The notes below the pieces were generated by a model. That model had not been told where the DNA came from and searched no databases. It worked only from the letters and a program-made list of their open reading frames with translations. Below, in pieces: positions 39,401 through 62,280 of a stretch of DNA of 64,000 nucleotides (its first letter is position 1; every line of letters begins with the position of its first letter). A program made the translations under genes and the position numbers. The stretch is taken from assembly GCF_964355755.1 (NCBI RefSeq), contig NC_092674.1, positions 26,400,001 through 26,464,000 of the forward strand, given 5' to 3'. This DNA is from Antedon mediterranea (Eukaryota > Echinodermata > Crinoidea > Comatulida > Antedonidae).

Positions 39401-42244
39401 CTTGCATTGCGTCCTAGTGGCAACTGTATTCCGATTCAATCTCGTTTCGATGTGCTGCTATGCATTCTATTTCCAGGTTTCCAGGTTCCAAAATTTAGTT
39501 GTTTTCTAATGTACATCTCAACCCCAATAATTATTAATTTAATTACAAATTGTTTGTTTTGTTTTTGTTGTTGAAATATGAAATTGATTGAACCTGTTTT
39601 ATTAAAAAGAAAGATAAAAACTGTATGAACCTACTTTGGTGAATTTCAAACTGACCAATGTTTCAAATCCTGGCGACACGGCAAATCCAAGCTGTTTGAC
39701 GAATGGGTACACACCCTGTGAATGGGTTAATATCTGTGTAGGAAGACAACATATTAATTACAAATAAAATTAATCCGGGTTGAGTTGTTAGTATTGCAGT
39801 AACGTAACCAACGCAACGTAAGAAAATGCCCTTCCAATAATTGTGTTTTCCCCCGCCTGCGTGAAATCAAACCTGCGATGTTTGCAGCACTGTTGCGTCG
39901 TCGGTTCCCACTTGTGATTACGCAACTCCCAGCACTTTGCGTCAATACGTCGCTGCGGTGCGTTCTAGTTGTAACCACGCTTAAAATTAATAATTAAAGT
40001 CACCCAGGCCTACATACATAATTACAATAATTAAAGCTTGGTTCCCTCTCGATGACACAACGCAAATATGTAAGCGAAACTTTAAACCTTGGTTCCCACT
40101 TGCGACGCAACGTAACGCAACCTACGCAACATAAGCAAATGATGCCCTTTCAATAATTTTGTTTGCCCCCGGGCCCGCCTGCGTGAAATCAAACCTGCGA
40201 TGTTTGCAGCACTATTGCGTCGTCGGTTCCCACTTGTGATTACGCAATATAGCACTTTGCGTCAATACGTCGTTGCGTTGCGTTCTAGTGGGAACCACGC
40301 TTAAGTAATTTCACCAATCACAAATGATGGATTATTCGAAGCACCGCTTGTCATTGGTAAACAAAGCTTCATAGTTTTGTATGTGGCATAGTGTTATATG
40401 ATAACATAACGCCATATATTTTAACCTTACTTTGAAACCAGCTCCTTTATTATTCCCATTAAGATATTCATCTTGTTCCACGTTTAATCGCAATGACAAC
40501 CCATAATCACTTCCGGTTTCCTTTACCATTAAAATGTTCTTTTCATCAGACGGGTGATTAAAGGTGTAGCAGACGCCAAAATCTGTAATTGACATCGTAA
40601 AGTTTTGATAAGTGCAAGGATTGATGTTTTTCCACATACAATCAATAATCATGTTTTCTTTCTGGTGAGCTCCTCGTATGATGTCAGCCGTGATGTTCCG
40701 ATCGCTGAAATCGTAATCTGACCAATCAATATCACTCTCTGATGTCTGAAGGCTTGGAAACATGAGTCTCAGCAACTCAGCGTCCGTTTCTTTAACGTAT
40801 GAGGCACGCCATTGGTTGTAATTGCAGATGGTTATTGCTGGAAAGCTTAGGTTCTCGACATAGTTCAGCGTCACCACGGTTGCCACCGGAAAAGCCGCAA
40901 AGTTCAGAATGTTTGTTGTTAGTCCAGCAATGAGCCAGGCAAAGAGCGCTATCATAATGAACATCCATAGCAATCTAACAATATGAAATATACATCTTAA
41001 GTTTCTTTTACGACCACAATGATGCGCCAAAATGGTGGGGACTGTCAACTACTAGGCACGAATGATTCTGTTTTCTATTATTAATTATTTTTCTATTATA
41101 AATCATTATTTTAAAAATAGTTGGCTATAGAAGCTTGATTTCCACTAGAACACGTAACGCAAAGATGTAAGTGCAACACCAGCTAATTGACCAATCACAA
41201 ACGATATAATATTCGAACTTTCCTTGCCATTGGTCGAATTGTTCGTTGCGCGCTTATGTCGTCCTAATGGGAACCAACCTTTATTGCAACGTTTATCTAA
41301 TGCATTTCAAAACTGTTGATAGATTGCTATAGCCTCATTTTATTCTAATCTTTAAAGACCCGTGACAAATCCTTCTCACTGGCTATCAGAAAATAGCAAT
41401 AAATTTGAACTGTTGTTGTTATGAAGTACCATTATTACTCTGGTAAAAGAGCACTTTCAGTTGCCAGAGAATTCTTAACATTTATAGAATTTTAACCTTA
41501 GATCTCTGTAGAGAAGTAAATGGCAAAAACCTTATAGACTGATGACATATTATCTTTAACGTGGTATAATACATTATACACTAAATATTTTAGTTGAAAT
41601 TTATCAATTTATTGCATACAATTTAATTATTCCATTCTACTAAGATTATTGTGTAATATTGGAGTTTGAGACACTATAGATAAAAATGGGGTAATTTACA
41701 AAGTTAAAGCAAAAATGTAAAAGCACAGATGAGACGTGTTTTTGAGAGAAAACTTTAAAAGGTCAGCAATGAAATATTCGTAAAATACTAAATAAGAATA
41801 TCCATGACCAGTTAAAAATGTTCACCTATGCTAATACCGGTTCCAGAAACCACCCAGACATAATTGGCAAGCCCAATGGATGCGCGGTATTGGAAAGTTG
41901 ACCGATTAATCATTTCGTAAGACTACAATCTAAAAAGATTGTTGAGTTGAAATTAGTAAAATAAAGTTTTCTTACTTTCTAAATCCGCTCGAATGTGAAC
42001 TTGTAATATACTTCAATCCATGCAATGACGTAGTTTCTCCAAAATCTTCCCAACTTTTTCTTCCACCTATCCACTTAAATCGGTTCTTTAATTTCATACG
42101 TAGTTTATTTTCCTCAGCCTTGTCATGTATGCCTACGGAAAATTGGTTCCCGCTGTTATGTCTCGTTAAAATTGAATCGGCACCACCATTCGTAGTGCTC
42201 CATGCCCAAGGATTCATCGCTATTTTTCTTCTAAAAGCTTTCAT
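33438..42244 (-). CDS. DEG/ENaC (ASIC-like) cation channel 1
   Basis: Complete 8-exon gene: 41976-42244, 40431-40974, 39635-39733, 39063-39210, 38009-38065, 35701-35851, 33916-34007, 33438-33619; 513 residues with all phases matching. The start is the first Met of its open frame. The N-terminus carries the gating motif His75-Gly76 (TTSLHGLKYI), then TM1 from about residue 90 (LLWMFIMIALFAWLIAGL). The ectodomain has FPAITICNYN, FGVCYTFNH, LNVEQDEYLNG, a PG motif and the cysteine series ending CGCKNYNMPG, CHCPIPC and FWPAQ. TM2 reads DIGGYMGLLLGASAITVCEL with the selectivity filter Gly-Ala-Ser at 465-467. Family members form trimeric amiloride-sensitive sodium channels gated by acid, peptides or force; the ligand here cannot be inferred. 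The basic KRRRERKQTK tail is cytoplasmic. Introns hold a minisatellite, a SINE-like element and several MITEs. Confidence 0.93.
34438..34875. repeat. 35-37 bp minisatellite in a DEG/ENaC intron
   Basis: About a dozen units of GATGCTAGGCTTAATGATCC plus AGTTCTATTCAATAA, with length variants. It lies in the intron between exons 33916-34007 and 35701-35851 of channel gene 1. Confidence 0.9.
36389..36441. mobile_element. Family B MITE, minimal copy
   Basis: The two inverted ends of family B (AAGCTCTCTGTCTACACTAT and the mirror) are almost back to back, leaving a near-pure hairpin. It lies in a channel gene 1 intron. Confidence 0.85.
37140..37735 (+). mobile_element. SINE-like retroposon with tRNA-like head
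   Basis: Positions about 37307-37372 resemble a tRNA gene: an A-box-like TGGTGTAATGGTTA and a B-box GGTTCGAGTCCC. A T-rich stretch follows. Then come two related 60-bp modules (TTTGGTGAGAATCGAA plus AAAACTGTGG) near 37480 and 37625, a CA run, and a terminal CCTCCTTGGCGGAGGTAA hairpin. CCTCCGCC also occurs on the left at about 37162. The whole may be one composite element; the left limit is uncertain. Confidence 0.5.
37206..37233. repeat. AT microsatellite
   Basis: Perfect AT dinucleotide run in a channel gene 1 intron. Confidence 0.95.
37840..38000. mobile_element. Family C MITE
   Basis: AAAGCCGATTTTCCCCAAAG then GCGAATTTGTTCGCGCGTAT on the left. The right side carries GATTCAAGCGAACAAATTCG in inverted orientation. 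The element ends just before the 38009-38065 exon of channel gene 1. Confidence 0.6.
38428..38965. mobile_element. Inverted-repeat element with duplicated ends
   Basis: GGCCAATTTACACAGACGAG followed by CGGTAACGGTAAGCGG occurs as several direct copies on the left (about 38428, 38551, 38584). Inverted copies ending TGTGTAAATTGGCCTT lie at about 38915 and 38964. The pattern suggests repeated self-insertion or end duplication of one MITE. It lies in a channel gene 1 intron and has no coding capacity. Confidence 0.75.
39289..39425. mobile_element. Family A MITE
   Basis: Starts TTAAGCTTGTTTCCCACTAG and ends with inverted CTAGTGGCAAC. Internal GACCAATCACAAGC faces ATTGGTCAACTCG. It lies in a channel gene 1 intron. 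Confidence 0.7.
39772..39984. mobile_element. Family A MITE, long subtype
   Basis: Shares GTGAAATCAAACCTGCGATG and GCAGCACTGTTGCGTCGTCG with 40081-40304 and, inverted, with 59126-59328. The right end is TTCTAGTTGTAACCACGCTT; the left end is degraded. Confidence 0.7.
40081..40304. mobile_element. Family A MITE, long subtype
   Basis: Begins TTTAAACCTTGGTTCCCACT and ends CTAGTGGGAACCACGCTTAA, so both ends are intact inverted repeats beside TTAA-like sequence. Internal sequence matches 39772-39984. A separate, truncated end lies just upstream at about 40031-40068. It lies in a channel gene 1 intron. Confidence 0.8.
41131..41283. mobile_element. Family A MITE
   Basis: Begins AAGCTTGATTTCCACTAGAA and ends with inverted CCTAATGGGAACCAACCTTT. 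Internal TTGACCAATCACAAACGAT faces CCATTGGTCGAATTG. It lies in channel gene 1 intron 1. Confidence 0.7.
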
Positions 42245-44301: not shown

Positions 44302-47300
44302 CTATCTCTCATTTTTCTTTCCTCGGCATCGGTAAAATTTGAAGCAGAATAGCTCTACAAATTCCAGCATAGTTAGTAAGCTTGCTCCAATACATAACCC
44401 GAAACTTCCACCGAGATCACCTGTAAAAATAATTTGAACTTTTTGTAGGTAACTGATGGCAGCCCACTAGTCGGCTTTTCGACATTTTGTCTGAAATTTA
44501 AATTTAAATAGTACACGTATGACACATCATATGTGCGAAAATATTTATCTTTTTACTAAAAACTCGAAACTCCGCCTAGAACCTAGACTACTCTAGTGTT
44601 AAAGAATGCAGGAAAGCGTGACAGAAGTGGACGTATGAAGCGCCATATATGCCAAAATATTTTCTTTTACTAATATCAAGTCAAAAATCCGTCTAGAACC
44701 TAGACTACTCTTGGTGTTAAAGAATGCAAGAAACCATGACAGAAATGGACTAACAGAAGACTTGTGCAGCAATGAGATCGTTTACTTACTGAACAGGCTG
44801 TTTATATCATAGTCGTACACCATGACCGAGTTTTCAACCCTTAATGATTGGTAGAAAATGTTTAGCTCTCCCAAGTTCTTTCTGAAATATATACAGTATA
44901 TTTGATTATAATAGTGTATTCACACTATACCCATGTATTCCATATATTTCGAACGTTTGTTTGCGTATTTAAACGCAGCTACCTCAAAGTTATATTTCGT
45001 AAAATGGATCATATTTAATATATTTTCATTAAAGATTTATTGTCCCCCTAAACATTTTTTTTTCTTGTTGTTGAATATGCCATTTTAATGTCAAATAATA
45101 GTTATTCACTTTGACCAAAAACTGGATCGAAAAAAAATTATTTACCGGAAAAAATGTAATTTAATGCAAATACTTATATTGTCTGTCAGACAATGGTTTT
45201 TAGTTAAAATTACTGTAATTGTTTCTTTTGTCTTTTTATAAGTGAAATAACATGTGTTAGGCTTTTTTTTTACAGAAGTGAATAACTTTATTAAAACTGA
45301 AAAACGGCTTATTTAAAGTCTGATTATATTAATCTTAATTTTTCATGTTTTTGGAGGACAATACTTCTTTAAGTTTTTCATTTCATTATTACTTTATCTC
45401 ATCTCTCGTCATACCAATTGCATCAGTTATGGTATCAACCAGTGCTTCCGCAGGAAAATAAGCGAAACTATTGCTTGTGATAAACGACTCTTCTTTACAA
45501 GGAGGCGAACAAATGCATGCTTCTAGACAAACACAAATCAATCATCAGAAACAAACATAGTATATCTTGAACTTTCATGATTGTTCGTAATAAACTCAAC
45601 GTAATAATTCATTAAACAAGATTTTGTCACACATGGCGTACCATACCTTTACTTGAATCTTCAGTAGGAGTTTAGTTGGGAAACAATCAAAACGCCCACT
45701 CTGGTCTGGTGGTGGCGCTCGTAAAGGACAAGAGACTTCTGACAAGTCTTAATTAATCAAGACATGAGCACCCGATTATCTGTACTGTATCTACACATTG
45801 ACATTATATAATCATGTGTGTTACATGTAGGCCTATCACATTTGGTGCCTGTATTAATTATGTTAAGATTTAGTTTAGGTTCGATTATGACCTATGACAC
45901 GTCGAAGTGGATGCAACAGTACCACATAGTTTGCCTGTACACATTATTGATAGTCTGACAGCTTTTCGTAAATTGTAGCTGCGACTATAAGAATTATTTA
46001 CCGATCAATGTGAATAATTATTTTGTGTGATTTGTTCATGAAACTATCCTCAACAGACTGCCAGAATATTATAGTGATGATATAATATAAATAATTTATC
46101 AAAGTTTTAAGATATAATGCTTTAATCTATATAGGCGGATGTGTTCATACGATCGATCCAATAATAACTCACTTGATGAATCTCGAATACACTCATTAAC
46201 CTCTTCTGTAGCGCAGATTGGACCGTCAGCTTCTATAGAGATATATTACATTTTATAGATGTTATTATTATATGAATAGAAATCATGATCTAACATGCCA
46301 TTGCCTTAAGCCTTGTCTACACTATCAAACTTTATGTGACAAAAAATGTGATGTGCCCATATATGGACATGATGATGTCTATCACCATATTTGGGAATAT
46401 CACTACCATATTTGGACTCATCACACTTTTTTCATCAAACTTGTTTGATAGTGTAGAGAGAGCTTTAGCATTGTAAATGGGAGACGGCAAAGGCAAAGCC
46501 GATTCAGAAATGTCGCAAGGCGGGGAGGTGGGGCGGGGGTATAACATAAAAATAAATTACTAATAACACTAATATTTAAAAAGAAATTAACATAAGCAAC
46601 AATAAAATATGAAACATTCAAAATTGGATTAATTGTTTGTAAAGTTTATAAATGGTGGTGGGATAAAGAGATTCGAGATTATAAGGGGATGTCATAAAAA
46701 TGAAATGTTACAGACACTGTCTCTCTTTCTCCAAATGTAGGCATAATGTTTAAAATTCGCCCACTTAGGCCTATTACTAAATGATTACCTTCAAGTTCTG
46801 CATAAAATAACCGACAACCACAATTTGACGCCAGAAAATTAGCCTGGCAATTAGTACGGCACTGATATGTAGTGTAGCCATCAACAGTATCATTGGCACA
46901 GTATGGTTGAAGGCGAGATACCTAAACAATATAATAATAATTACTTTAAAAAAAGAGGCTATTGTGCGGTCCACCGTGTGTGTAACTTAAAGTTTTCTAT
47001 TGGCACGGTCAAAACTCAAGTTATATAATGTATTAGTTATATCTATTTTATTGTATAATTGCAATAGCTGGTCTGCTCCCAAAATTGATACTAAACCTTT
47101 ATCTGAGATTGTAAATAAACTTAGGTGGTCTATGCTTGGTCATATACTTAGAATGAGTGAAGATACTCTTGCTTTTCAGCGTTGGTGTTGTACACTCTAA
47201 TTCAATAAAAGGCCGAATTGGAAAACATCAAACAAATCTGTTAAGTACACTTCGAAATGATTTATTTATCAGAAATTTTAAGTTAAATAATTTAAACGAC

Positions 47301-50300
47301 TTAAGGACAACTGTACCGAGGACCATATTTTAAAAACGTATTAGGGGTATACATATGATTTCAGAACCATCGCGAAATCGAGGATATCGCCGCACGCGCT
47401 CGCCGTACAGCCGTCGCCGTAAATTGCTGTGACGTCACAGGTGCATCGCATAATCTACTTAATGAGTTTTCGCTGTTGTTACCATACAAAAGATAGGTAC
47501 CGTCACTTCAATTGCTTATTTAACCTTTTAAATTACTTAAATTTGCCAAAATGTTTTCCTGGTATTTTGAAGAAACACTTCAATATCCAGATAGGCAAAA
47601 CAAACAATAAAAAAATTCAACTTTTATATTTTTTACGATTTATTTAAAAAGTGTGTTTACTAGAAATGTTCGCGCTTTGCGAGACTTGTCTATGGGACCC
47701 GAAGAGTAGCTAGTAGAGAAACATGACGTATGACGTTCTGGAATCATTCAACCATATCGGACTCAAAACTTTTTCTCTGCTAGCTAGCGATTTTTGGGCC
47801 GTGTGCGAGCTTCCTCCTCCTCGTGTGTGTGACGGTGGTGTGATCAACATTGTGTAGAGTAGTAGTAGAGAGAGGGAACTGAAAATGCCGGCGTGTGTTG
47901 TTTCAAATTGTCGGGAATACGAAAAAGCCCGATTAGATGGAATACCCTTTCATACCTTTCCAAATGATAAGGCGTTGGCCAGAAGATGGTTAACTGTTAT
48001 TAGAAACGCTAATTTGAATCCCGGCTGTAAGCCGTCGACATACAGAACTTTGCGAGTTTGTGGAAAGTACTTCATGAAGTCAGATTACCTACCTGACCCA
48101 AAACACGATCTAGCTCCGCATCTTTACAAGCCAAAACACCGCCTGAAACCTGACGCAGTACCAAGTATATTTGCATTTAACAAACCTAGTAGTACAACTA
48201 TGAGAAGTGCATTTAAAAAAAGACAGGAGGCTGGTAATCAAGAATCGGTAAGAACAATGATGAATTTACCACCAGAACAATAATATATTAATAATTAGGC
48301 CTAATATATCAAAGTAAAATATAGGCCTAATAAGTTTTTTTTTTCTTTTTATGTTTAGGCTAAGCCTAAAAAAAAATTAACAATTGACTGGGCCTACTAC
48401 TCTGTACATTATTAAAATATTACATTTATGATATAGGCCTAGGGATTTTAGGCTATGCCTAGCCTATAAATCCAAACAAGAAAAAATATAGCCTATGCTA
48501 GATAGTATTACTACTACTACTAGCTAGAGATAGGCCCTTTCTTAGTGCATTATTTTTTTTAAATGAAAAATGCTATAATGATGATTACTACTAACTAGGC
48601 CTACTAACTACTAGCCATCATTTGGTGATTGAGAACAACAACAAATAACACTAACTATAGTTTAAAAAAACAATTCTATTTTTTGTTACTGTGTAGAAAT
48701 GGTATTAAAGAAAAATAAATATATTTAGGTTTTCACAGGCTCAGAATCATCGCATACATCACATGATGTCCAAGAAAAAAAATCAGTACATGGCAATGAT
48801 GATGAGGTATGATTATTTATGGTTTATCTATCTTCACCAACTTGTGAATGCGTAGTGTATGTAATAATATCAAATTCTGTAAACTATATAATATTATAAT
48901 TTTACAGGACTTAAATGTAAGCTTTTCATCATCACATGGAAATGAGTCGATGGGATGGATACCAGAAGAGGACAGTTCTTCTCCCTCTGAAGAAGAAATA
49001 GAAGTAGTAGATGATAATGTTACAGGAAAAGTGATAGTCAATGTTGATAGTGTGCTTGAAATGTTTAAGCGATGCCAAGAATGCGGTCAGAAGATAATAT
49101 CAACAAATGTGTTATACAGGGGAGCACAAATAATTGTACATTGGCAATGTACTGAATATCACTTTGGCAAATGGGAAAGCTGTCCAGATGTTCGTGGAAT
49201 GGCAGAAATCAATTTACTTACAGCCTCTGCTATTTTGTACAGTGGAAACACATATCAAGCAATTAATAATTTTGCTAAAATTCTTGATATGCATTTTTTA
49301 TCATCATCAAGTTTTTATCAAATTCGAAAATGTTATTTGTTGCCAGTCATAAATGAAGCATATAAGGAACAACAAGATGTGATGATTGCCGAACTCATTT
49401 TAAGAAGTTTGGATAATGAGACTATCTCAATTTTGGGGGACGCCCGGTCAGACTCGCCAGGGTATTCCGCAAAATATTCTACGTACTCTTTTATTGAAGA
49501 GAAAAGTGACAAAATTGTTGATGCTCGGCTGATACAAGTGACGGAATGTTCCAGCTCAGTAGCAATGGAAAAGGAAGGTTTCATCAGAAGTTTAGAGTTT
49601 TTGTTGGGTCATGGCATCAACATCAAAACAATCACAACTGACAGATCACCATCAATCAGAAAAGTTATGAAGGACGAATACTGGGAGATATCACATCAGC
49701 TTGATTGCTGGCATGTTTGTAAAGGTATGATTAATACAGTAAAATAATTTTCTAACAAACTAAAACCAAATTAAATCCTTCATTTTTTTTACTCTCATCA
49801 GTATATAAATAAGCACCATATACATATTGTACAAATGAGCATTATATGAGTTTGCTCTAATCTATCTCATCTCACACAGTGTAATTTCAATTGACACTTC
49901 TTCTAGTCTACTAGTGTAGCACCAGCGAGTACAGTATATACTGTAATCATGTTTGTAAAGTTCATAAATTGTTTTACTAATACTATATTGTATATTTTAT
50001 CAAATATTTCAGGCATTAAAAAGAAAGTCTTGGCAAGTGGTAAAAAGAAGGGAAATGAGCACCTATTATTGTGGACCAAGAGCATAACAAACCATTTGTG
50101 GTTCTGTTGTGCAACTTGTAAAGGTGATGTCCAGGTATGACCACTAGTGAATTTTTTTTTCAATCGACAGGGGTGAAGAGGAAAAGCAAAAGTAATGAAA
50201 CTCTCATCTTGTGATGTGCTTAACAAGCCCTGTCAATATACTGTAAACAAAACAAAAATATATATTTATGTACATCATCATATTGATAATTGATATATAA

Positions 50301-53300
50301 AATACTCAAAATTAAAAAATCAGTTCTGCTTTATACTGTGTTTATTATTAATAAGTACTATATAATTAATACAGAAATAAAAATAAAGTTGTGTCCAATA
50401 AAAAATATTGCAGTACTATATAAACTGCTCTTATACTAGTATAAAAGAAAAAAGAGCACCATCATCATCATTCTCTAAATTGAGCTTTACACTATTTTTT
50501 TACTAATGTTTAGGTACTCAAAAACAGGTGGAAATCAATTTTAAATCACGTGGTAAATGTTCACAGATGGGAGGAAGATGGGATTGAGAATACCTGTGCA
50601 CACAGTGCCCTAACAGAAGAAGAAGCAGAAAGCAAGATATGGCTAGAATATGATTCGCCAGCCTATGATGCTTTGAAAAAAATTGTACTGGATAAAAGAT
50701 TAGATAATGATCTTGGTCAACTTGGAGAATTTAAGCATACTGGTGGGTGTGAAATGTTTTTTGTGTAGACAATAAGAATTAAACGTTAGTGTAAAACCCA
50801 TTTTACTTACTCACTGCTCAATTCTTCAATTCAGGTACCTTAGAGTCCTATCATGCCTCGTACACCAAGTTTGCCCCAAAACGAATTCACTTTCATTATG
50901 GTTCTATGCAAGGCAGGACTCAGCTAGCAGTTATAGATCATAATGCTAATGTTGGCAGGAAACAGGCACAAACAATTGCAGGTAATACTTATAATGCATG
51001 TAATAAAATAATACGACACTTTAAGTTAATATACAACATTTTATTATATTCTCTGTTCACCCATGTCTAAACTGTCTAGTCCAGCTACATAATAGGCCTA
51101 TTAAAAATGATTTGTTTTTCTGAATTTAATTGTAGGTGATCTTCGATACAAAATGGTTTGCCCAAAAAAATTTATGAAGCTAAAAAATATGATTACGTTG
51201 TTGATCTGGTTGAGAAGACGCTACAGAGACGAATGGACCCAGGTATAAGGTACAAATATACAGAATCTGCAGTGCCTCTTCCAGAATTACCAAAAAACAT
51301 CTCAAAGCAGGAACAACCTTCTAAAGATTTATTAATAAATGAATATTGTCAAAGAACCGAGCAAATTATGGATAATCAGTAGATGATTATGATGGTGATG
51401 ATTTAAATACTGTTGTTATACAAAGTTTATTTTTCAGTTTAATCGAACAAATTATGCATCATCAGTAGCAGGCCAAGAAAAACCTTTGTATGTTCCATCA
51501 GGTGAAGGAAACTTTTCTCTAATTTTCTTGACCAAACAAGCTGGCAATACCATTCTGTTCTTGTAGCCTAGTTTTTCACCTTGTAGAATCCATTGTAGTA
51601 CAACTCTGTAAGCTACAAGGCGGTATTGTCTGATAATTTAAAAAAATGAATGACTTTAGCTAAGTCTGTTAAAAATAAAAAGTGCCATGTTTTCTATATT
51701 TTGTTTTACTCACTGCTTGTTGATATCTAGTATTCTATATAGTAATTGGTTATTAGAGTGACTTTTGAAAACATGGTCATGCAAAACAGATTTAGTGGTC
51801 AAATGTATTTTTAAAAACAAAACATATTCTTGTGCTTATAGAGTAGTTCTCTTGAGTTTAACACAATGGAACTAGCGGCAAAATGAATGTATTATGTAGA
51901 AAGAATAAAAAAAATAAATAAAGGAAGAAAGATATCTTGAATAAAAAACCAAAAGCCTTACTCATTATTTAGTTGGCCATGTAGGCCCCTTGGTTTCGGA
52001 AATTGTTTCCAGTTGTGTCGATGACTTCGAAAAAATGTTGTCAAAACACTTGTATTTAAGTGTGCTTCAAGATCACAATGAGATGTAATGCACCGTAATA
52101 ATAAATCGTCATCTTTTTCCATTGGAGTTGTAGTAGGCCTCTCTCTCTCTAACAAAGACAATGTTTGTTGAACTTCATTGCAACATACACATTCGTCTTC
52201 CGTTGCCATTGGTGTACAAAAACCACATGTACACCAAAAACTGTCATTCAGTCTACTTACTAAAGCAGTTGGCAGGGGTGCAACTGCACTATTATTCTTC
52301 TCCTTTCTTCTGCGCTCTATCTCGGTTGGTGAGTATTGTGGTTCAAATAAATATGGTTTTGGAACAGAATAAAAAATATCGTCGTCACTTCCATACTCTT
52401 CTTCTTCTGTTTCATGCACTTCAGCCATGTTTTATCGTTATATGTGTCTATGATGAAATTAAATGAGAGTATTAAATTGGGCTATATTAAATACCGATTT
52501 GATATGCACTGCCTAGTAGGCCCTGGGTCTACCTAGTAGTATTCAATCCATCTGCCTAACCCTTCCTCTAGCTGGGCACAATATGATTATGAGTGAGGAT
52601 TTCGAGTAAAATATTATTAATATTATTATAATAAGTTCATGAATTTTTAGGCGTTCATAAACGGCGGCCATGCCCCACCCACCATGCCATGGCCAAAGGC
52701 CCAAAATAATCAGACCCACTCTAAGCTAGTAGTAGAGTACTACTAGGCCTAGGCTGGTACTAGGTAGGCATAGTACTATACTAGGCTCTTGCGCATATCA
52801 ATTAGTAGCCTATTTATTATAGGCCTAGCCTAGTAGAATAGGCTTACCCAGACTCCTACTAGGACTAGGCTAGGCATATATATAAAAGAAAACAGCGGCA
52901 GCAGAGCCAGAGCAGAGGGGACCTAGCTAGGCCTAGGCCTAGGGTTAGGCCTAGTTTTGTTTTCCAAAATTGAAATTACGAGACCCTGACACAAAAACAA
53001 ACATAATCTAATTTTTTTTTTAAACTTACGTGATAAGCCCACGATCAATGCTAAAAAACTTGTCTGGAAAAATTACAACTATCTCACACACAGAGTTTAC
53101 CACATCACCACACGTCACATACACACCACCACCACACAGCAGCAGCAGAGAAAAAGTTTTGAGTCCGATATGGTTGAATGATTCCAGAACGTCATACGTC
53201 ATGTTTCTACTAGCTACTCTTCGGGTCCCATAGACAAGTCTCGCAAAGCGCGAACATTTCTAGTAAACACACTTTTTAAATAAATCGTAAAAAATATAAA

Positions 53301-56300
53301 AGTTGAATTGTTTTATTGTTTGTTTTGTCTATCTGGATATTGAAGTGTTTCTTCAAAATACCAGGAAAACATTTTGGCAAATTTAAGTAATTTAAAAGGT
53401 TAAATAAGCAATTAAAGTGACGGTACCTATCTATTGTATGGTAACAACAGCGAAAACTCATTAAGTAGATTATGCGATGCACCTGTGACGTCACAGCAAT
53501 TTACGGCGACGGCTGTACGGCGAGCGCGTGCGGCGATATCCTCGATTTCGCGATGGTTCTGAAATCATATGTATACCCCTAATACGTTTTTAAAATATGG
53601 TCCTCGGTACAGTTGTCCTTTAATTCATTTGCGTGAGATTGCCAGCAACAGAAATAAGTGGCTTTTGTTATTTTGAATCATTATTTGTACGTTATTTTAT
53701 ATTTTTTGTTGTTGTAAGAAGCATGCATGTAAGAACGCAGTGCGTGGTTTTGTTACATTTTTTGGAAAATAAAGTTCCTATATATAGGCACGGTCGACCG
53801 TGTTTGTGTAAATTAGTATGTAACCGTAAAATAAGTCGATATGCCTACCTAATGTGTACATCTTTCGGCACGGCTTATTTACTGTACGTGTAAGTTATAC
53901 TATTTAAAAGTTCCGCTAGGCGACGACTTTCCAAGAGGACACAGAAAGTTTTACTCTATAAGAGTGTCACAGTGTGACGTCACAACGATAGAGGGCACTG
54001 CATGGTTGCTAGCGCCAGAGCCATGGCTCTGGCTAGCGCAACCAAAAATGCGTTCAATGCTACTCTATGTTGATAAACTGTATAGATCTGTATTTCTATC
54101 GAATTATGTATCTTTAGCTTGATTTTTTTAAACTTAAACTGTAGTTGAAGAATAAATAGATTAAAACAAATCTTTAGTGATCTTTTAAAATTTTAGTCTG
54201 GTTTTATTGAAAATTATTAAGTTTTAAAATGACTACTTCAATAGGCCTAAGCCGATTCCAAACCATTGGTGATCTGAGAATCACTCAGGCAGGTTGAACG
54301 CTATTCTATACATACCGATTGCTTTCGAATGCTAACACGTGTCATCATGGCAGGTGAAATAAAAAACGAACGTTCCAACATCTCATCTGGATTTTCGCGT
54401 GGGCTGTGCAATAAAATCTTTAAGAAAATATATACAACATGATGAAATGATGAGCATTATATAGTCTGGGTTCCAGACGGAGTGTTGTCTTAATTAGTAA
54501 AATGATAATATTTTTGCACATATGGCGTTTCATACGTATACTACTTGAGCTTTGATACTATTTTCAGACAAAAATGAATACAAAATTAAAGATACAATGA
54601 ATATAGACTTGGGGAATGTCTAGATGAGCATGAGAAAGAGAAAAAAGTGTTTTGGCAGAGCAAGAAGAAGTGTAAGAAAAGGAGAGAACATGCGAATGAG
54701 GAGGAGGAGGATAATGAAGAGGAGAATGAACAATAGGAGCAGGAAAGGAGGATGGAGAAGGTAGAGGAGATGTTATAAATACTACCAACTGTCAAGCTGA
54801 AGAGTTAGAATGTTTCTATTAGTTTCAGAATAGTATCCAAGCTCAAGTAGTATACGTATGAAACGCCATATGTGCCAAAATATTTATCGTTTTACTAATC
54901 AAAATACTCATTATTGTTATAATTACCCTAAATCCAGCAGAAAAATCTTTCACAGGTAAGTATTTTTCCTGCTCAACATTAAGCCGTAACCACAGTCCGT
55001 TCTGACTTCCACTCCCTCTTACTTGCAGAGGAGGACTACTTGAATTCAAGGCAGAGTTGAATGTATAACAGATACCGGCGTTTGTAACCACTTCCGTGAA
55101 ATTGTCATAATTGCATGGGTATTCCGAAAGCCACAAGCAGTCTATAATCATATCCTTGATATCGTGAGATGCACGACGAAGCTCGTCCAAATAGCTCGTC
55201 GATTCATTACCAACTTTTCTTTCACTTTTAGCGATTAGCGACGTTAAAGGATCGCCATCTAATGGCCACGTGTCTGAGTCCACATTGCCTTTCACCACAA
55301 CGTTGATGTTGCAAATAGTAACAGCGGGAAATTCAAGATCGGCTAGTTCATTGTGTGTTATGATTGTGGTTGTTTCCCCCTTACTGTAGCGTATGGTCAG
55401 ATCAATAGCAGAATACATCAGCACTGCCATGAAGACCATGACGAAAAGACCCCACAGCAATCTAAAAGAGAATGTATATATATATATATATATAAATCCA
55501 AACGCAAAATACTGAAAAAATGACAATGTTGTGGGTATCAGTGGCTGGATCTCAATGGAGATACAAAAAAAAGCAAAAAGCTAAATCAAAACGATGAAGT
55601 CAAACAGCCAGAAAAGTTAGCAGAGCCATTGGCTAAGACTATTCTGTAGTCATTATGGCAGTGACCAAATCCAGTATTCGATCCAGAGTATATTCAGCAT
55701 AACCAAACCACAGTTACAATTCTGCTATATCATTTATATTTATACTTCAATTCAATCGAGTTACCATTGTTTCAAAAACAGAAACGGAATCTATAATTTT
55801 ATATGCATCGTTGATAATCAATCAAAATATATATTTATTATAAATAAGTACAATGAATAAAAAATAACACACTTTATCAACAAACAAGTTCGTGATATTA
55901 AAAAATCAGAAAGCACGTTCTATATACGGATATGAATATTGTCATTAATCCAGGTAGTTATATTAGATAACTATTCTATTCAACAACTGAATACGACCTG
56001 GATAGGTCGTGAAACGTCGCTGTTATTATAATAAACAAGTCAACAAGTCCAGTTGAATAAATTTATCCTTCTAAACATACCTACCAATCAGTTTGCCGTT
56101 AGTATAGCAAATTATAGAAATCATACTTTTAGAAGGTTAAAGTACTACATCACAGTATTTAAGTCGTTGATATAGTAATAACATAACAATTATGCCTGAA
56201 TGGATTAAAACATTACTAGTCAATATTTCGTCAATTTCAATCAGTTACTTTTAATTACTAAATTAAATGAACAGCAGCAGCGCTTTAAACAAATCAAATT

Positions 56301-59708: not shown

Positions 59709-62280
59709 TTATATTACTACGTCTCCAACTTTTCTCCCTTTTGGTAAACATTTACGAAGTAACATAAAGACAAATTCGACAATCTCAATGATTGTCATTA
59801 AACTCATTCCACATAGCAATCCCATCAAGCCACCAATGTCACCTTCAAAATAAATAGTCAATGTTGAATTATTAATAACAAATATAATAATAGTTTAAGT
59901 AAAGACATGGAAGATAGGAACGCCTACTTGTTAAACTTTTACGTTTTACTGCACAGATTTGATAACTGAATGGATACCACGATGATAATTGTATAACTTG
60001 AGTGTGGGATGGCTTGGCGCTGGAAAGCTAAGTATTTGGTTAGATATTTGGCGCTACACTGACTTTCATAACACATCATCTGATCCTTGATGCGCTTGCG
60101 ATTTGTTATCTATATGGATTTTTGTTTTTGCTCATCAATAATTACTACTGTTAGGCATGGTTTAAATTAATTGATGGTCTTTATTGGCCGTCTCCTATCT
60201 TTGTTAAAAATATATACCCAAAGATAAAACTTACAGAGTAGCTTGATTGAAGAATACACTGGAACTTGTTCTGCAATTTCATAACTTATATCTTCGTAAT
60301 ACAGATACATGTCGAGGTAGTTCTTTCTAAAAATATAAATATATATAATTGTATTAACTTATTGTATAAGTGATGTAGGTCTTTTCAAAAAAAAAGCCGC
60401 ATCCGCTGTAGGTCAACATATTCTGATTCTTTTTCATAACACATAAACGAACTTCCACACACAACTTTACACATAATTATGAATTAATAAATATAATAAG
60501 GTTAGTAGATATTTTGATTTTATCATGCGGAATCCAACAATGGACACTTTTGTGTTCAGATCATCATGTATGCTAGACGCCACAAACAGATAGTAATATC
60601 TTACTTTATCGTCTCTGTGGACTGATGCAAATGGTGCTCGAGATGTTCCAGAAAGTGATCCCCCGGCCATAAGGCAGACGATACTTTAGTGGAGTATTCC
60701 TTATAGTGGCATGCAGTCCGACATTTGCAGTGCATCTTTGTTTGTAAAAGATTTTCTATTAAATACATTTAAACATTAGTTAATAAGGTTTAATACATTT
60801 TCTACATACATAAAAAACTAAAACTAGGCCTTTCGTCAAATTTTGATTTCACATACCTGCCTCTGGTACTACACATTCGACCGCCTCATCTACAGTACAG
60901 TTCCTCTGGTTCAAATACCCTAAAATAGTTATACAAAAAACTCTTTCAGCACTGTTAATGTTACATAAGAAAATACATTATACACCTAATTAATGGTTTA
61001 ATTAATCCTTAAAACTTATCTGGATAGGTCATTATACCTTACATGGATACGACGTCAAAGCTTACCTGGATACGTCGTTAAAGCTTACCTGGATACTTCA
61101 TTCAAGTTTACCTGGATACTTCGTTAAAACTTACCTGGATACTTCATTCAAGCTTACCTGAACGTGTCAATACAGCGTACCTAGATACTGTACGTCGTTA
61201 TATCTTACCTGGATACGTCAGTATACTGTAGCTTACTGTACGTACCTGGATACGTCATGAAGCTTACCTAGATACATCATTGTAGCTTACGTACCTGGAT
61301 ACGTCATGTTAGCGTACCTGGATAGAAAGCATGACGACATCCACATTTTACATATAGTACATCAGCAATGCATTCTTCTTCGCATATTTATTGGGTATAA
61401 ACGTCAGAGTACTTTACACCATTATCTACACATTCTGATGGATATGGTTTCTTGAGTGATTTATACTAAAGTATATTAACAATATGTAAAATTGGCTAAC
61501 GTATAATTTATATTATTTTTGTTTTTGGTTAAAAATCTAAAATGAGAAACGATCATCAATCAATATTATGGTAATTTGTGATATTTGTATATTACTGAAA
61601 AAAAGCTAGATAACTCACAAGTGTTTTTCGAAATGCAACCAATGTTTCGTAACCAGGAGAAAGTGCAAAACCAAAATGTCTAACAAGAGGGCGCTCTCCT
61701 TTGCTATGTACTAGCATCTGGAATTGACAAATTAATTGTGTAAAACCTTGTTTAGAATAGTCATGAAACAAAGTTGTCATAAGAAAAGTGTTATAAAATT
61801 ACCTTAAATCCTGCAGCAGAATTGGCTCCATGTGTATATTCATTTTGTTCGACATTTAATCTCAAGTACAAGCCTCTAGATTTCCCAGACTTCTGCACCG
61901 TAAGCCGTCGGCGGTTACTCTTATGATTAAATGTATAACAAACTCCAAAATCCGTCGTCATAGCGGTTGTAAAATTCAAAGGTCCGCATTTCTCGTACAG
62001 TTCCCACGTGCAAAGCTCAATTGCGCCTTCTACTGTGTGCGCAGTCTTACGAAGTAAGTCCTCTGCGACGACAGTTTGTGCTATTTTGAGAGTTATCAGT
62101 GGTAAATATATCAATACCATCTTCGACTAATCCGAAGAAACTACTTAACATAAGCTGTTCATGTTGCCTGGTTACCGAAAGTCTCATCTCATAACATCGA
62201 CAGGGGTTCGGGTGTCGAGGCTCACCATGGTTCTGGTAGTAAAACGAGTCTTGTCGGATAAGGAGGTCCAGTGTACACAT
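59709..62280 (-). pseudogene. Decayed DEG/ENaC channel 3
   Basis: Recognisable exons: about 62280-61803 (partial ectodomain), 61619-61717, 61318-61465, 60857-60919, 60605-60755, 60235-60326, 59709-59842. Four have exactly the lengths of channel gene 1 exons (99, 148, 151, 92) with the same phases. Breaks: an in-frame TAA at 61388-61390 (YTQ then stop then ICEEEC, aligned without gaps to YTVEACQTEC in gene 1); a frameshift at about 62060-62095, where homology passes from one frame (TDNSQNS) to another (AEDLLRKTAHTVEG); and no HG motif or TM1 in the window. The filter in TM2 is Gly-Met-Ser (LLCGMSLMT), not Gly-Ala-Ser. Still visible are FGVCYTFNH, LNVEQNEYTHG, KCGCRHAFYPG and CKCRTACH. An upstream exon beyond 64000 cannot be excluded. 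Most likely a pseudogene. Confidence 0.8.
61015..61320. repeat. 23-bp array of splice-donor-like units
   Basis: About 13 degenerate units of CTTACCTGGATACGTCGTTAAAG. On the minus strand most units read ATCCAGGTAAG, ATCCAGGTACG or a close variant, a consensus 5' splice site. The array abuts the real donor of exon 61318-61465, which reads TATCCAG then GTACGC. It appears to be an amplified exon-intron boundary. Confidence 0.85.

Follow-up and report, generated by a model that had tools for sequence, protein, structure and literature searches.

A recently active Kolobok transposon with a convergent P2X7 ballast-domain gene in the crinoid Antedon mediterranea

The P2X7 receptor has been proposed to be a fusion of a P2X4-like gene with KolX, a gene of the Kol0 lineage of Kolobok transposons whose product adopts the ballast fold of P2X7 (Kojima and Bao, Mob DNA 2022, PMC9587614). 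In a stretch of 64,000 nucleotides from Antedon mediterranea (contig NC_092674.1, positions 26,400,001 to 26,464,000, on C5), hereafter the window, a gene for a stand-alone P2X7 cytoplasmic domain lies between the ends of a transposon. Is this gene a regular part of the element, or is it a P2X7 tail that the element has captured? From the evidence below we are highly confident that the element is a recently active Kolobok of the Kol0 type and that the convergent KolX is a regular gene of it, not a captured P2X7 tail.

The element and its two genes

The transposon occupies positions 47304..53619 of the window (6,316 bp, no strand assigned), as delimited by its inverted repeats and by sister loci with TTAA flanks. 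Both its boundaries and its long matched terminal repeats had been proposed in a first-pass annotation, made from the sequence; the boundaries proved exact to the base when compared with the inverted arms and the termini, and the repeats are inverted arms of about 478 nt that are 99% complementary. The left terminal inverted repeat (47304..47781, plus strand) begins 5'-AGGACAACTG and the right one (53144..53619, minus strand) finishes CAGTTGTCCT-3'. They are detected as two inverted arm pairs, one of 415 nt at 99% (47303-47717 / 53206-53620) and a second of 65 nt at 100% (47717-47781 / 53144-53208). The runner-up among the inverted pairs of the region measures 51 nt at 75%; the arms of the element are far beyond what is expected by chance. 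The termini in the window family are 5'-AG...CT-3', which agrees with the 5'-RR / YY-3' ends of Koloboks. On the right the element is flanked by TTAA (53620..53623), and on the left by CTTA (47300..47303), which differs from TTAA by one base. TTAA is found at both sides of the loci L021-L027, L029-L033 and L037, so the family has the 4-bp TTAA target-site duplication of the Kolobok superfamily.

The transposase gene is on the plus strand and consists of seven exons, which join in frame according to the predicted splicing. Exon 1 (47885..48247) was obtained by splice reconstruction and codes for the THAP domain, found by Pfam. Exon 3 (48908..49724) contains the first two catalytic aspartates (GDARSD, TTDRS) and the DxxH motif (LDCWH), and exon 6 (50835..50981) the last catalytic glutamate (GTLESYH). 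Exons 2 (48729..48806), 4 (50013..50134) and 5 (50514..50742) are frame-consistent splice reconstructions, and exon 7 (51136..51382) is the last. The spliced product of a sister copy (L022) has 676 residues and matches the Pfam THAP domain with 54.8 bits and the Mutator-like family PF20700 with 34.4 bits, in agreement with the THAP transposase first read within the element. In an alignment with other families the catalytic D, D, DxxH and E are kept, and the protein is accordingly a DDE transposase with the C/DxxH motif that Koloboks have between the second D and the E. A piggyBac transposase domain, piggyBac being another TTAA system, is absent, as Pfam finds the THAP and Mutator-like domains only.

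In the window copy, a 28-bp deletion near 51162, located between two CCAAAA repeats and common to the window copy and a twin on C3, shifts the frame of exon 7. The window transposase therefore has 622 residues instead of 676, and its normal C-terminus, the last 54 or more residues, is lost. A full transposase can be read in the loci L022-L025 (676 residues) and L027 (675 residues). The word intact in the first-pass annotation thus holds for the P2X7-tail gene, but it does not hold for the transposase of the window copy.

The second gene, KolX, is convergent to the transposase and has two exons on the minus strand. Exon 1 (51962..52428) codes for an acidic N-terminal part and the zinc cysteines (WCTCGFC...ECVCC...RCI), while exon 2 (51452..51629), reading ...AYR...LPAC...KIREKFPSPDGTYKGF, codes for the C-terminal half of the P2X7 ballast domain. 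The predicted GT-AG intron has the donor GA/GTAAGG and the acceptor ATTATCAG/A, and the product has 214 residues; the two-exon gene (52428-51962 and 51629-51452) and the length of its product are as originally described. The spliced product matches the Pfam family P2RX7_C (PF20478) with 57.1 bits and an E-value of 2.9e-15, the cut-off being 23.5. In a search of solved structures, the single KolX sequence matches rat P2X7 (6u9v) at E 5.5e-6. A profile of four family members, with sequences from this genome alone and no P2X7 included, recovers P2X7 chains over residues 472-594 at E 4.3e-10, with no other noteworthy match. The identification as a P2X7 cytoplasmic domain, for which a Pfam search had been suggested, is borne out by both the family and the structure matches.

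Eight cysteines of KolX (C66, C68, C71, C80, C82, C83, C113 and C187) are invariant between families. Among the five GDP-contacting residues of rat P2X7 named in PMC7016195, R546 and R578 are retained in KolX as R159 and R193, while according to the alignment H547, R574 and K583 are changed. Non-vertebrate ballast domains show the same pattern of retention (PMC7016195). The KolX genes of the window and of L021-L025 are almost identical and have open frames; in L027 the frame is broken by a one-base deletion. KolX is a complete gene of 214 residues with no P2X channel joined to it, so it is not a P2X7-receptor fusion.

Koloboks of the Kol0 lineage encode two proteins, and their KolX is clearly similar to residues 476-595 of human P2X7, including the zinc cysteines (PMC9587614). 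The window element has the ballast domain in its second protein, and it shares with the Kol0 elements that carry KolX (Kolobok-1_XT type, PMC9587614) the TTAA duplication, the 5'-RR...YY-3' termini and the DDE transposase with DxxH. By these features the element is a probable member of the Kol0 lineage. Unlike the Kol0 elements described, the window family is a separate one with long terminal inverted repeats. The window element probably represents a family that has not been described before, or is one copy of a family that is not yet catalogued. In the KolobokP elements (Kojima and Bao 2022, PMC9587614), too, the opposite strand carries a second gene beside the Kolobok transposase; however, their long terminal repeats are direct and they encode a His-Me nuclease, whereas in the window element the repeats are inverted and the second gene is of the P2RX7_C type. 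With the stand-alone ballast proteins of invertebrates (ZCD, PTHR36981) and zebrafish Nanor, KolX has in common the zinc cysteines, the equivalents of R546 and R578 and a C-terminal KIR..FP..G.Y.GF motif (PMC7016195). These proteins are treated as products of host genes in PMC7016195, while the window gene is inside a multicopy transposon. The P2X7 tail itself (PF20478, P2X7 residues 472-594) is a homologous ballast domain, from which KolX differs in having no P2X channel and in retaining two of the five GDP contacts of the rat protein. With 120 columns and about 30% identity, a tree of KolX and the vertebrate P2X7 tails would hardly be resolved.

Copies and recent movement

A search of the whole genome (354 Mb) finds at least eight copies of the element, including the one in the window. 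Five of these are full-length at 98-100% (on C5, the window copy, and on C3, C1, C2 and C11), and three more are interrupted or split (C1 at 2.47 Mb, C5 at 24.2 Mb and C6 at 11.7 Mb). Many solo ends of the window family are found in the same search. The flanks of the complete copies differ from locus to locus. The twin on C3 has a single substitution compared with the window copy in 6,316 positions and its flanks are unlike those in the window, which shows that the movement is recent and happened after the 28-bp deletion. The window element is a recently active transposon. A search for homologues between terminal repeats of the same type had been proposed as a check, and such copies exist, with the same terminal inverted repeats, TTAA, different flanks and the tail gene. 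Four derivatives (L030-L033) consist of the ends only; they are 1.04-1.06 kb long, have TTAA on both sides and contain neither gene. Another TTAA-flanked locus (L029, C7:13.37 Mb) is a rearranged relative of 4.3 kb, with fragments of KolX exon 1 on both strands.

A THAP-DDE transposase should bind to the long inverted repeats, excise the element and insert it at TTAA. Such cut-and-paste chemistry at TTAA is what we infer for this element from its family and from the target-site duplications. Since the window copy and its twin carry the same frameshift at different sites, the window copy was probably mobilised by transposase supplied in trans from the intact sister copies. Alternatively, the shortened transposase might still work although at least 54 residues of its normal C-terminus are missing; we favour this less than the supply in trans.

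Recurrence of the gene pair and the origin of the P2X7 tail

In the genome there are 70 P2RX7_C matches. At least 28 of them have a detected Kolobok transposase no more than 10 kb away, and in 27 of those 28 the two genes are convergent; by chance, such neighbouring is expected about 0.002 times per P2RX7_C match. The other 42 of the 70 have no adjoining transposase among the matches listed. Remains of a transposase were found by direct reading in L043, L044, L046 and L047. Both genes are present in nine out of ten sampled loci of 9.4 kb, corresponding to about seven families, as L041 and L042 belong to a single family and L043 is closely related to L044. P2RX7_C copies with identical scores occur on different chromosomes, which favours transposons over single host genes. 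One locus (L040, 4260-7404; C6:16.86 Mb) holds a 3.1-kb element with 33-nt ends and TTAA flanks, of which at least 13 further near-complete copies exist. KolX is the only gene that it carries, with a frame interrupted upstream of the C-terminal exon; a transposase is absent. Its end is similar to the one found in the L045 family, which suggests a non-autonomous derivative.

These results bear on two other explanations of the gene pair. Transposons do capture host genes, and the tail gene could be a host gene that was captured once, by the window transposon, the pairing being a local accident; the capture of host genes by transposons speaks for this, and so does the annotation of stand-alone ballast proteins as ordinary genes in many animals (PMC7016195). 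However, the convergent pair is found in several diverged families, with ~30-40% identity in both proteins, and it has also been reported for the Kol0 lineage (PMC9587614). The recurrence in diverged families indicates one old association and not a local capture, which we consider very improbable. Alternatively, the second gene of the element could be derived from a P2X7 receptor gene, in line with the homology of the KolX and P2X7 domains. The distribution contradicts this direction of transfer, since P2X7 occurs in vertebrates only, while proteins with the ballast domain are found from sponges on (PMC7016195). It also disagrees with the genome at hand. Exons of P2X channels are located on C3 at 4.196-4.201 Mb and 6.684-6.721 Mb, and none of the 70 P2RX7_C matches is beside these channel genes; consequently no P2X7-like fusion was found in the genome. 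A receptor origin is therefore hardly credible.

An old association of KolX with the transposase is the reading that we retain. The first-pass annotation had proposed the tail gene as transposon cargo, had named several independent insertions with the same two-gene layout as what would support this, and had suggested that a domain travelling on DNA transposons would have a route for its spread and its capture by a P2X gene. The dispersed copies with their terminal inverted repeats and TTAA, together with the recurrence of the convergent pair in several diverged families, support the cargo status. The interpretation is right but not new: KolX was described, and the same origin of P2X7 deduced, in 2022 (PMC9587614). 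In that paper Nanor is seen as a domesticated KolX, and Kojima and Bao point out that the transposons went unrecognised in Rump et al. (PMC7016195); the text of PMC7016195 contains no word starting with "transpos" and does not mention transposons. With the evolutionary point, i.e. the P2X7 tail from KolX, already published (PMC9587614), what the window adds is a clear-cut case, recently mobile and present in near-identical copies, of the class of transposons proposed as the source of the tail. Having near-identical mobile copies also means that the function of KolX can be tested with a natural element.

The role of KolX

We tentatively regard KolX as a possible zinc-binding accessory factor, either needed for transposition or regulating it, on the basis of its co-occurrence with the transposase. 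Among the close copies, four codon changes in KolX are silent and one is altering, and in the transposase three are silent and eleven altering. If about three in four random changes are taken as altering, the ratio in KolX has a binomial probability of about 0.016. The numbers are small, and the ratio is a hint of constraint on KolX.

KolX might instead be passive cargo, without a role in transposition and retained merely by its position between the ends. The 3.1-kb derivative without transposase has multiplied despite its broken KolX frame, and the derivatives of about 1.05 kb without either gene have moved too. The spread of derivatives without a working KolX implies that KolX need not be supplied in cis. 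On the other hand, the intact copies have an open KolX frame, and the KolX cysteines do not vary between families that share ~32-34% identity; passive DNA would lose them. We therefore find a purely passive KolX unlikely, and an accessory role in trans fits both the hint of constraint and the multiplied derivatives that have no working KolX.

A wider proposal, rather doubtful as a whole, is that Kol0 transposition requires KolX as a zinc-binding and perhaps guanine-nucleotide-binding factor, that the P2X7 tail is this factor in domesticated form, and that the "ancestral synteny" reported for ballast genes in 2020 is the gene order of a transposon. In that report ballast genes are linked to two markers from sponge to sea urchin (PMC7016195), and these two markers may be Kolobok genes.

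The transposon sits inside a cluster of channel genes of the ASIC/degenerin type (Pfam ASC), which in the window are found at 40422-41000, 54918-55499 and 61271-62057, all on the minus strand. Further ASC-type genes are present on C5 from about 26.05 to 26.48 Mb.
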